Assembly (NCBI RefSeq): GCF_904846315.1 | Contig: NZ_CAJHAF010000001.1 | Coordinates: 1,240,001-1,304,000 of the forward strand | Length of the DNA: 64,000 bases | Direction of reading: 5' to 3' | From: Psychrobacter jeotgali | GTDB taxonomy: Bacteria; Pseudomonadota; Gammaproteobacteria; Pseudomonadales; Moraxellaceae | Shown: one piece after another, positions 58,627-61,830 of the stretch | How the letters are laid out: every line of letters starts with the position of its first letter | Position numbering within the stretch: position 1 is the stretch's first letter | Translations under genes and position numbers: made by a program | Notes under the pieces: model-generated | The model's database searches: none | What the model was told of the DNA's origin: nothing | Seen by the model: only the letters and a program-made list of their open reading frames with translations

Positions 58627-58852
58627 AAAGTACCAATCATCGAAGAGTTAACGCAGCAGCTTATATAGTAAGTAATCCAGTTGATAATATACTAATGGCT
58701 AGCTTAACCTTAACCAAGCAAACCAGTTAAGAAATAATACCAAGTTCAATATTGAAACAATGGTTTAACCTTTTTATATAATATAGACAGTTTTATTGAG
58801 TGGATATGTTAATCCAAGAATATCCAGTGCAATGACATTGACGAGGAGCATC

Positions 58853-60253
58853 ATGAGATTTTTTTCTTTACGCAAGACCAGCCGTGCGGTAGTATTTTCT
58901 GGCATGAGCGCTGCTCTTTTGCTAAGTATCAACGCCCAAGCAGCCACAGTCGATGCTACTAATGCAAGTAATGCCCAGCCTGCTACTAACCAACAGAGCA
59001 GCCCTCGTCTAAACTCGGCGAACAGTACTGATGGCATCATCGCTTTAGTTAATGATAACGTGATTCTAAAAAGCGACTTAATTAATGCTATTGCTCAGAC
59101 TCAAGCACGAGCACAAGCCACTGGTGAATCCATACCCAATTCTGCGCAGCTGCAATCTGAGGTATTAAATGCTTTAGTTCTACGCGAACTGCAATTGTCA
59201 TTGATTAACCGTGTTGGACTTCGACCTGATGAGGCGGCGATTAATCAACGCCTTACTCAAATCGCTCAAGCCGAAGGACTCAACAGCATCTCAGAGCTAC
59301 AGCAGCGCTTAGACGCTTCGCAGCCAGGCAGCTATGCAGCGTTACGAGCCAGCCTTATAGAGGATGCGGCGATTCAATCTTTACAGCAGCGTCAAATTAG
59401 TAGCCGGGTTCGCATTACCGAGCAAGATATCGATGCATTTTTAGCATCGCCTGAAGCCAAACGTCTTAACCAAAATGAATACCAAACGATTCATATTCGT
59501 ATTCCTTATTTAGATGATTATAATCGTTTGTCACAAGCACAACGTGATGAAGCATTAAAGATTGCGCAGACTCTACGTACCCGTTTACAGCAACCCAACG
59601 TAGATGTCGACACTGCTATTGCAGAAGCTCAAAGCAACTATCCTATAGAAATTCAAGGTGGTGATATGGGCTTTCATAAAGCCGCTTCTTTACCCACTGA
59701 GCTTGCCAGTGAAATCACTAAACTTGAGGTAGGAGCCGTAAGTGCGCCACTTGTAACACCTCAGGGTATCGATATTGTTAAACTCGCTGATAAAAAATCT
59801 GATGATAAAACTATCATTCCGCAGTGGAACACCCGTCATATCTTAGTTAAGGTCGATGAGATTCAAACTGACGCCCTGGCTGAACAAAAGATCAATGATC
59901 TATACGAACAGCTACGTCAAGGCGCTGACTTTAAAGCGTTAGCTTCTACTTATTCAGATGACCCAGGCTCAGCGGGCCGCGGTGGTGATCTGGGCTGGGT
60001 CAGTGATGGTGATATGATTGGGCCATTTGAAGCGGTTATGAAAACGACAACCGTTGGTGACTACTCTACTCCTTTTAAAACCCAGTTCGGCTGGCATATC
60101 CTAAAAGTTGAAGGCCAACGTCAACAAGATGTTACCAATGAATACCGTCGCAATATGGCTCGTCAAGCTTTGTATCAACGTTTAGCGCCTCAAGCCCGTG
60201 AAGACTGGCTACAAGAGCTACGTGCTGGTGCTTATATACAAGTATTTGAATAA
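58853..60253 (+). CDS. surA: Periplasmic chaperone/peptidyl-prolyl isomerase SurA
   Basis: A 466-residue periplasmic protein. The signal peptide is MRFFSLRKTSRAVVFSGM to about residue 36 (AQAA). The SurA N-domain (IIALVNDNVILKSDLINAI) is followed by two parvulin domains. The first (TIHIRIPYLD to VKLADKK) is divergent and the second (NTRHILVKVDE to GWHILKVEG) is well conserved. It escorts outer-membrane proteins such as LptD to Bam. Start ATG 58853 with GAGGAG upstream; an in-frame start at 58796 would add 19 residues. A TATAAT box at 58777 suggests its own promoter as well as lptD read-through. Confidence 0.95.
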   Translation: MRFFSLRKTSRAVVFSGMSAALLLSINAQAATVDATNASNAQPATNQQSSPRLNSANSTDGIIALVNDNVILKSDLINAIAQTQARAQATGESIPNSAQLQSEVLNALVLRELQLSLINRVGLRPDEAAINQRLTQIAQAEGLNSISELQQRLDASQPGSYAALRASLIEDAAIQSLQQRQISSRVRITEQDIDAFLASPEAKRLNQNEYQTIHIRIPYLDDYNRLSQAQRDEALKIAQTLRTRLQQPNVDVDTAIAEAQSNYPIEIQGGDMGFHKAASLPTELASEITKLEVGAVSAPLVTPQGIDIVKLADKKSDDKTIIPQWNTRHILVKVDEIQTDALAEQKINDLYEQLRQGADFKALASTYSDDPGSAGRGGDLGWVSDGDMIGPFEAVMKTTTVGDYSTPFKTQFGWHILKVEGQRQQDVTNEYRRNMARQALYQRLAPQAREDWLQELRAGAYIQVFE

Positions 60254-60435
60254 GATGCTTACTTTTAGCTAACGATATAGATCGCACAGAGTAAAAATCT
60301 TTAAATCTTAATGAATAACAAAAAGGTATGAGCAAGCGCTTATGCCTTTTTTATTTAGTGGTGCCCCACCCGTAAACAAGTTACTTAATTAAGAAAAAAC
60401 ACCTATACAACTATGAATATTTATTATTAAGCAAT

Positions 60436-60601
60436 AAAAAACCCCGAACTTTGGGCGATTAGTTCGGGGCCATGAGCTTGCGTTTTATTATTATTCTCTT
60501 CCTTGCTGACTTATCCCAAGTCATAACAGCAACTTATTACAGTGGGCTGACCTGTATATTCGTGCTGCTGTCTCAGCACCGTATCCTTACCTCTCCTTGT
60601 G
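60436..60601 (-). ncRNA. Predicted Rsm/Csr-type small regulatory RNA
   Basis: A minus-strand transcript of about 166 nt is predicted from a sigma70-like promoter to a terminator. It contains four GGA motifs: ACAAGGAG and TAAGGATAC near the 5' end, TTGGGAT in the loop of a perfect 5-bp hairpin (GACTT / AAGTC, 60508-60522) and CAAGGAAG next to it. Another stem-loop (GTGCTG / CAGCAC, 60562-60579) separates them. Multiple GGA motifs in and between hairpins are the mark of RNAs that sequester CsrA/RsmA. A GacA-type box lies upstream. There is no open reading frame of note. The start is estimated from the -10 box. The call rests on architecture, since primary sequence conservation in this class is low. 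Confidence 0.72.
60442..60469 (-). terminator. Intrinsic terminator of the predicted sRNA
   Basis: A 9-bp perfect stem (CCCCGAACT / AGTTCGGGG, 10-nt loop). On the minus strand it is followed by six or more T (60435-60441). The direction excludes surA as its user. Confidence 0.9.
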
Positions 60602-60607
60602 CTGATA

Positions 60608-60637
60608 ATAGTATTTTATGCCAATCCTCTAAAGCAA
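60608..60637 (-). promoter_or_regulatory. Sigma70-like promoter of the sRNA
   Basis: On the minus strand TTGCTT (60632-60637) and TACTAT (60608-60613), 18 bp apart. Transcription would start near 60601. Confidence 0.55.
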
Positions 60638-60662
60638 ACTAGAAGCTAAAAACTCTATTTAT

Positions 60663-60680
60663 TGTAAGCTTTTGCTTACA
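60663..60680 (-). promoter_or_regulatory. GacA-type upstream activating sequence
   Basis: TGTAAG-N6-CTTACA, an exact match to the 18-bp GacA box of pseudomonads, extended to 10-bp arms (TATTGTAAGC). It is centred about 70 bp upstream of the predicted sRNA start and 25 bp from the -35 box, the usual arrangement for GacA-activated rsm genes. Confidence 0.8.
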
Positions 60681-60711
60681 ATATTCTGTAGTAGCTAGCT
60701 TTATACTAGAC

Positions 60712-61830
60712 TTAGTTTTCTTCTGCATGTTCTTTTGAGACTTTTTTACCTTCTTCTTTACCTGCTTTTATTTTATGCTCAGATTCCTTCATATCTTCTG
60801 CATCAGTGGTAGGCGCATTTTGCTCTTGTTTGGGAGCTTCTTCTGGCTCATATTGCAACGTCGTTAATACTGGAAAATGGTCAGAGCCAATAGAGGGTAG
60901 ACGCTGGATATCTACTACGGTAAAGCAAGCACTATGAAAAATGTGATCAAGGGCCCAGCGTAAAAAAGGATACTTTACATGGAAGGTATTAATAAAATGG
61001 CGCCCAATACGTGGATCAAGCAGCCCTGAGATACGTTGAAAACGGCGGGTAGTCTTTGACCAAGCCACGTCATTGAGATCCCCTGCTAGTATGGCGGTTT
61101 GATTATTATCTTTAATATGACGACCAACCATTAATAACTCGGCATCACGAGTAGTAGATTTGTCGGCTTCCGTTGGGCTGGGCGGCATTGGATGCAAACA
61201 GTATAACCAGATGATACGCCCACCTTGTAAGCGTATCTGCGTATGAATAGAGGGAATATCATCGATCATCAGATATTTGACTTCCGGCTCTATCAACTCA
61301 AGCTTAGAATACAGATGCATACCATAAAGGTTATCCAGCGGCACTTTTACGCTATAAGGATAGTCAGGTTCTATCTCCTTGAGCGCCGTCTCCCATTTTT
61401 TATCTGATTCAAGAGTGATTAAGACATCAGGCTGTTTCTGCTGGACTAAGCTCACCAGCTTATGAGTCTCATCATTAGGTGTTAATACATTTGACACTAT
61501 AATTTTTAATTGATGAGCTTTACCTTCAGGTTTGTCTTTAGCTTGCTTAACTTCTTTTTTCCATAACTTTGTATAAGGTAGTACCATTCTTAGCTGGAAT
61601 GCTAAAGCCACGCTTAATAGCAAAAATAACAACCCTTGCCCTATCTGCCATTCTGACCAAAAAAACAGCATGACGAACCAAGCAACAAGCCCTAGTACTA
61701 AGATTTGAATCCGCGGAAACTCCACCCCACGTACCCACCAGTTATCAAGCGGTAACCAACCCCAAACCGTTAGAAAGGTAATCAGCGCTGCTAGTCCCTG
61801 TACGCCATAATATAGCAAAGATAAATCCAT
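60712..61830 (-). CDS. Membrane-anchored endonuclease/exonuclease/phosphatase-family protein
   Basis: A 372-residue protein with three hydrophobic N-terminal segments (about 5-80), then an EEP hydrolase domain (about 108-330): VSNVLTPNDE, TLESDKKWE, LYCLHPMPP, ILAGDLNDVAWS and a C-terminal RWALDHIFHS and GSDHFPVL with the catalytic His. Catalytic Asp/His/Asn positions are intact. The C-terminal 45 residues are Lys/Glu-rich. The substrate is unknown; relatives include nucleases, phosphatases and sphingomyelinase-like enzymes. It ends 32 bp before the GacA box on the same strand, and read-through into the sRNA is possible. Confidence 0.82.
   Translation of the reverse strand: MDLSLLYYGVQGLAALITFLTVWGWLPLDNWWVRGVEFPRIQILVLGLVAWFVMLFFWSEWQIGQGLLFLLLSVALAFQLRMVLPYTKLWKKEVKQAKDKPEGKAHQLKIIVSNVLTPNDETHKLVSLVQQKQPDVLITLESDKKWETALKEIEPDYPYSVKVPLDNLYGMHLYSKLELIEPEVKYLMIDDIPSIHTQIRLQGGRIIWLYCLHPMPPSPTEADKSTTRDAELLMVGRHIKDNNQTAILAGDLNDVAWSKTTRRFQRISGLLDPRIGRHFINTFHVKYPFLRWALDHIFHSACFTVVDIQRLPSIGSDHFPVLTTLQYEPEEAPKQEQNAPTTDAEDMKESEHKIKAGKEEGKKVSKEHAEEN

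Follow-up and report, generated by a model that had tools for sequence, protein, structure and literature searches.

A candidate GacA-controlled Rsm-type small RNA conserved downstream of an EEP-family gene in Psychrobacter

The minus strand of positions 60683-60434 in the 64,000-nucleotide stretch of the Psychrobacter jeotgali genome analysed here (the window) very probably encodes a non-coding small RNA of the Rsm/Csr type that is activated by GacA and titrates CsrA; its transcription, activation by GacA, titration of CsrA and contact with Hfq are each predicted from the sequence and its relatives. The unit is intergenic, lies between surA and an EEP-family gene (Table 1), where an earlier note on this DNA had placed it, and reads along the minus strand as palindrome, linker, -10 hexamer, RNA, GC-rich stem and T-run. 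The conserved box, GGA motifs and terminator, together with csrA and gacA in the same genome, support the proposal of that note that this genus, a member of the Moraxellaceae, has an Rsm-type sRNA of its own here, for which control by GacA and binding to CsrA would be expected. As it is conserved across the genus and absent from Rfam, the RNA would represent a solid new example of a well-known class of regulators.

In the proposed mechanism, GacA phosphorylated by a GacS/BarA-like kinase would bind the palindrome 75 nt upstream of the RNA and turn on a promoter with a TAnAAT -10 hexamer. The resulting RNA of ~172 nt would offer four AGGA/GGGA sites to CsrA dimers, two in the loop of the 5' hairpin, one in a further hairpin loop and one single-stranded, titrating CsrA off its target mRNAs and releasing the CsrA-controlled mRNAs. 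The genome would encode three RNAs of this kind, the one in the window included.

Table 1. Features of the candidate RNA unit and its neighbouring genes in the window
Feature	Position	Strand	Evidence
EEP-family (PF03372) gene, located upstream in the same orientation; serves as conserved synteny anchor	60712..61830	-	
GacA/UvrY box (putative), inverted repeat with 10-bp arms; start 75 nt before RNA start	60660..60683	-	sequence and relatives
Linker, conserved, box to promoter; family consensus AAATAaGGTcTTTaGCcTCTAg	60639..60660	-	relatives
-10 hexamer TAAAAT, conserved	60613..60618	-	comparison with relatives
Rsm-type small RNA (putative), ~172 nt; predicted start at or near 60605	60434..60605	-	fold, covariance model, relatives
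5' hairpin; loop holds GGA1 (60594-60596) and GGA2 (60584-60586)	60573..60605	-	fold, covariation
Second hairpin, enclosing a sub-hairpin; GUCAGCCCA in loop; pairs with compensatory changes	60525..60572	-	covariation
GGA3 hairpin TGACTT-GGGAT-AAGTCA; GGA at 60514-60516	60507..60523	-	fold, covariation
GGA4, single-stranded (AAGGAAG)	60500..60502	-	fold
(ARN)n / AAN-repeat stretch, conserved; possible Hfq distal-face site	60483..60495	-	sequence, relatives
Intrinsic terminator, GC-rich stem and T-run; loop AATCGCCCAA	60434..60471	-	sequence, relatives, covariation
surA, convergent neighbour	58796..60253	+	

A putative GacA/UvrY palindrome is located upstream of the RNA's own promoter. The arms of this inverted repeat (TATTGTAAGC/GCTTACAATA, 10 bp each) enclose an 18-bp core (TGTAAGCAAAAGCTTACA, 60663-60680) which, as described in the earlier note, is an exact TGTAAG-N6-CTTACA. 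This exact sequence was matched once within the 64-kb window, and base composition gives a chance expectation of 0.006 per window and 0.3 per genome. The available text of two publications gives the same sequence as the UvrY/GacA site (PMC4682653, PMC4950607), in agreement with the previous reading of the palindrome as a GacA site. The conserved linker between box and promoter is possibly contacted by a second activator or by IHF. Relatives keep the -10 hexamer as TAnAAT, with one exception seen (L212); no conserved -35 was apparent when their promoter regions were compared, and a generic promoter scan yielded no excess over shuffled sequences (2 vs 1.9). The letters of the previously proposed TTGCTT/TACTAT promoter are indeed present, but TACTAT does not hold as the -10, since the hexamer that relatives keep as TAnAAT is TAAAAT here (60618-60613) and TACTAT lies ~5 nt too far downstream.

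The predicted fold of the RNA is a bit more stable than that of shuffled sequences (z -2.18; 5/200 shuffles equally good), and its 5' stem shows a compensatory change from A-U to G-C in P. jeotgali. It contains the four GGA motifs described previously, including the one in the loop of a perfect hairpin, and these conserved triplets, located in loops or single strands, are predicted to be mostly unpaired (probability 0.79-1.0). Their number is not above chance (4 vs a shuffle mean of 3.7), so that their significance lies in their conservation. The Rho-independent terminator, recognized previously by its T-run, has a loop of 10, exceeding the limit of 8 of the terminator scan, which therefore did not list it. 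An intramolecular pairing between CCCUA of the terminator loop and UAGG of the GGA3 hairpin was considered and rejected; it fits the commonest sequences and fails in L077, L211 and L215.

The region was identified by DNA search in 20 of 38 relatives (own genome included; E 1.1e-14 or better), which correspond to 20 of the 25 same-genus genomes, the other five giving only weak matches. A covariance model (R1) built from these 20 matches was run on 159 family genomes and detected the RNA in four genomes of genus g20 and in all but one of the 46 Psychrobacter genomes listed (45 of 46); the order of the list suggests that none of the 85 further misses, which fall outside it, belongs to Psychrobacter. 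G148, the only listed genome of the genus that R1 missed, contains a single exact box, which heads an L002-type RNA (see below). Of twenty weaker or outlying R1 matches examined, 11 show a box whose distance to the RNA start is exactly 75 nt and one (L093) a degenerate box at that place, and eight (L078-L085, from genus g28 and including a second match in G111) were judged false because no box lies upstream. An order-wide R1 search with stricter filters matched 3 of 145 genomes, all of this genus.

The EEP gene provided a second route to the locus, yielding 74 loci (73 from Psychrobacter and one from Methylobacillus), of which one Psychrobacter locus was too short and 72 were judged. An RNA start and a box at the expected place follow the EEP gene in 70 of these 72, and the unit is absent directly downstream of it in L221 (P. 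pygoscelis) and L222; this locus count and the R1 genome count share many genomes and are not independent. Among the 70 loci the box lies at exactly 75 nt in 63 and at 76 nt in 2 according to a script, with the remainder assigned by inspection and recount. At least four GGA triplets occur in the first 165 nt at 67 of the 70 loci, and two or three at the other three. The check across Psychrobacter suggested in the earlier note thus finds box, GGA motifs and terminator all retained.

Conservation and covariation were quantified on 47 loci (42 distinct sequences), keeping out short antisense and other weak matches (81 matches in all); since the alignment also excludes nine true but divergent relatives (L074-L077, L086-L090), these values apply to the genus core. 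The GGA triplets are kept in 95-98% of the 42 distinct RNAs, whereas triplets overall average 73% (p 0.0007 by permutation). Furthermore, 97.4% of the cells in the alignment of these 42 sequences pair, and two-sided changes were found in 21 of 39 pairs, compared with 5.9 in shuffles and 3-7 in slid-partner controls, although these pair counts favour structure because the alignment was fitted to the model.

The best-conserved 8-mer of the RNA is not a GGA site; it belongs to the terminator (consensus GCCCTAGG, read as GCCCAAAG in this genome), which suggests a role for something besides CsrA. GCCC occurs within the last 40 nt of all 42 distinct RNAs and at least twice in 40 of them. The copy in the terminator corresponds to window positions 60451-60460, and among R1 relatives the motif often recurs in the middle hairpin. 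ARN repeats of 4 or more, a possible Hfq distal-face site (in the window, the AAN-repeat stretch of Table 1), are found in 37 of the 42 RNAs compared with about 3% of shuffles, and hfq is present in the genome. These features, for which RgsA offers a precedent (PMC2375449, available text), could point to a GacA-controlled sRNA that acts mainly by Hfq-dependent base-pairing via its C-rich GCCC loops, and not as a CsrA sponge. We regard this as improbable, given that the four GGA triplets are conserved and mostly unpaired, that genus g22 has at this locus an RNA with nine GGA and no GCCC, and that the box is an rsmXYZ-type one, absent from RgsA as far as it is described there. Since the sponge role leaves the conserved GCCC loop and the ARN tract unexplained, we hypothesize, as a possible though doubtful extension, a dual-function RNA combining a minimal four-site CsrA sponge with base-pairing via the GCCC loops of the terminator and middle hairpin, aided by Hfq bound to the conserved ARN tract. 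On this view, a GGA-rich sponge of the sort that genus g22 still has at this locus would have lost GGA sites in the Psychrobacter lineage while acquiring a loop for pairing. If so, one Gac-controlled transcript would drive both CsrA titration and direct targeting of mRNAs.

For the CsrA-titrating RNA preferred here, csrA, gacA and a gacS-like gene are found in one genome, the latter two on the strength of best models below cut-off. CsrA (82 aa, C1:1215019) carries the HREE motif; of 102 good family genomes, 101 encode CsrA. Among NCBIfam models, GacA/UvrY fits the GacA-like regulator (C1:162784-163416) best, with 245.8 bits, short of the cut-off of 280 and followed by the next model at 158; the presence of both csrA and gacA, listed for checking in the earlier note, is accepted on this basis. 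The GacA/UvrY model also matches below its cut-off in 12 of 14 control genomes. A GacA orthologue is present in 28 of the 29 family genomes tested and missing in G038, which also lacks an exact box. Furthermore, the genome encodes a hybrid kinase of 1204 aa next to a gene presumably representing cysM, and in Pseudomonas cysM lies beside gacS. The Pfam family PF09984, tried as a GacS marker, had no match in the genome and the sensor domain of the kinase was not recognized, so the BarA model was used in its place; this is the best model for the kinase, with 511 bits against a cut-off of 890. The Moraxellaceae sensor domain has been described as a separate branch (PMC8639471, available text).

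Three exact boxes are present in the whole genome, and the two outside the window each head a GGA-bearing, terminated RNA. The RNA at L002 (C1:2611782; L002 1501-1990) contains 11 GGA in 274 nt (p 0.006) and that at L003 (C1:2803076; L003 1501-1880) 7 GGA in 204 nt, a number that is not significant (p 0.09); the ends of both were set by eye, and neither has an Rfam match at gathering score. Together with the RNA of the window they likely form an RsmX/Y/Z-like trio, as judged from these sequence features. Of 38 relatives, 22 contain L002-type DNA, and all 22 are Psychrobacter. A presumed Prc-like protease gene lies next to L003 and likewise next to one box RNA of genus g20. The related pattern GTAAGCN4GCTTAC was found in 50 of 50 genus genomes (154 sites, 1-5 each; none in the reversed control); not all of these sites are sRNA boxes, an example being the fourth site in this genome. 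A recurring GTAAGCCCGAGCTTAC site (C1:301792 in the own genome, also in some relatives) differs in its centre from the sRNA boxes. In some Psychrobacter genomes, two or three GacA-type boxes lie within about 1-2.6 kb (G137 C1:420275-422847, G023 C19:20597-22067, G005 C111:17436-18432), which suggests tandem copies of putative box-driven sRNAs.

Exact boxes were identified in 16 of 26 family genomes, one of them Psychrobacter (27 boxes in all), against four single matches of the reversed control, each in a different genome. GacA is nevertheless encoded by nine of the ten genomes that lack an exact box, which counts against a simple story. When one box locus per genome was considered, at least 6 GGA within 330 nt on one side were found in 9 of the 16. 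The same EEP gene is followed in genus g22 by a box and a nine-GGA RNA (L154 and L155, starting around 1573), identifying this RNA as the positional counterpart of that in the window; one of its GGA sits in the terminator loop, and the genus is not among the R1 matches listed for the family genomes. A possible counterpart, as judged by its layout, occurs in genus g28 (L149, L152, L153), where a box precedes a terminated RNA of similar kind that has few GGA, AAN repeats and a hairpin resembling GCAAGGAATGC.

It could be argued that the palindrome belongs to another regulator and that the RNA is an unrelated conserved sRNA carrying GGA by chance. Binding of GacA at the box is a prediction from its sequence, in many species the site reads CGTAAG..CTTACG or TGTAAG..CTTACG and so deviates slightly from the consensus in print, and three exact boxes of other genera (L150, L151, L156) have no evident GGA-rich RNA alongside. 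We nevertheless consider this very unlikely, as every exact box of this genome heads a GGA-bearing terminated RNA, GGA-rich flanks recur at the family box loci counted above and GacA is conserved in the family. The EEP gene directly upstream on the same strand and a 21-codon ORF read by eye in this genome might speak for a non-RNA feature, such as a spacer, a gene for a small protein or the 3' end of the EEP mRNA. Scarcely any credence is given to this reading, because the unit has its own conserved -10 and box, covariation supports an RNA, about 1.3 kb separate the EEP gene from an intact box-RNA unit in L173, and the ORF is broken by ACT-TAG after its ATG in 29 of the 42 distinct RNAs, the longest closed ORF varying between 4 and 31 aa.

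In Psychrobacter, the Gac-Csr pathway would thus have its RNA arm in this RNA, which is likely one of three box-driven RNAs in the genome. Together with the box-headed, GGA-rich RNAs of other genera, it offers a route to annotate such RNAs in Moraxellaceae and to trace the gain and loss of CsrA sites. Searches of the open-licence literature turned up no description of this Psychrobacter RNA.

Rfam contains models for RsmX, RsmY, RsmZ and CsrB. In the window, no Rfam covariance model matched at gathering score, and the nine matches obtained at E up to 10 include no Rsm/Csr family, consistent with the low similarity to known Rsm RNAs anticipated in the earlier note. The weak matches (MIR1878, SurA sRNA, GibS and others) lie far below their gathering scores and were rejected, MIR1878 merely spanning the palindrome. 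Likewise, when 17 sources were scanned, no Rfam match at gathering score fell on an sRNA locus.

Acinetobacter belongs to the same family as Psychrobacter, and RsmA-regulating sRNAs have been predicted in strain ADP1 (Fakhry et al. 2017), to which the RNA of the window can be likened by their description in the available text (PMC5568370). Likewise by description, the Csr sRNA Pf1 of the polar gammaproteobacterium Pseudoalteromonas fuliginea shares a GacA-like box and GGA motifs but has 21 GGA (PMC9927453, available text). RgsA of Pseudomonas is GacA-dependent, as is proposed for the RNA of the window, although its control by Gac is apparently indirect; according to the available text it has one GGA, an RpoS promoter and no rsm-type palindrome, and does not relieve RsmA repression (PMC2375449). 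Four conserved GGA and a true palindrome would therefore place the Psychrobacter RNA on the Rsm side and not on the RgsA side.

RsmX/RsmZ and CsrB/CsrC combine a GGA-based sponge logic with a terminator, as does the layout predicted here. They also share TGTAAG-N6-CTTACA (PMC4682653, available text), but the RNA of the window has fewer GGA and a different sequence, and the L002 RNA with its 11 GGA is nearer to them. Its four GGA are likewise below the 6-10 given for the Rsm RNAs of Pseudomonas brassicacearum in the available text of PMC7911923. In general layout, the RNA of the window is closest to RsmY of Pseudomonas (P. aeruginosa, P. fluorescens), which is also short with multiple GGA. As described in the available text, rsmY has its GacA box at -75 as well (PMC4950607), and in P. 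aeruginosa Hfq reportedly stabilizes RsmY (PMC7911923), for which the conserved ARN stretch would be the counterpart. The Psychrobacter RNA differs from RsmY in having four GGA instead of seven, a conserved GCCC terminator loop and no match to the Rsm families of Rfam.
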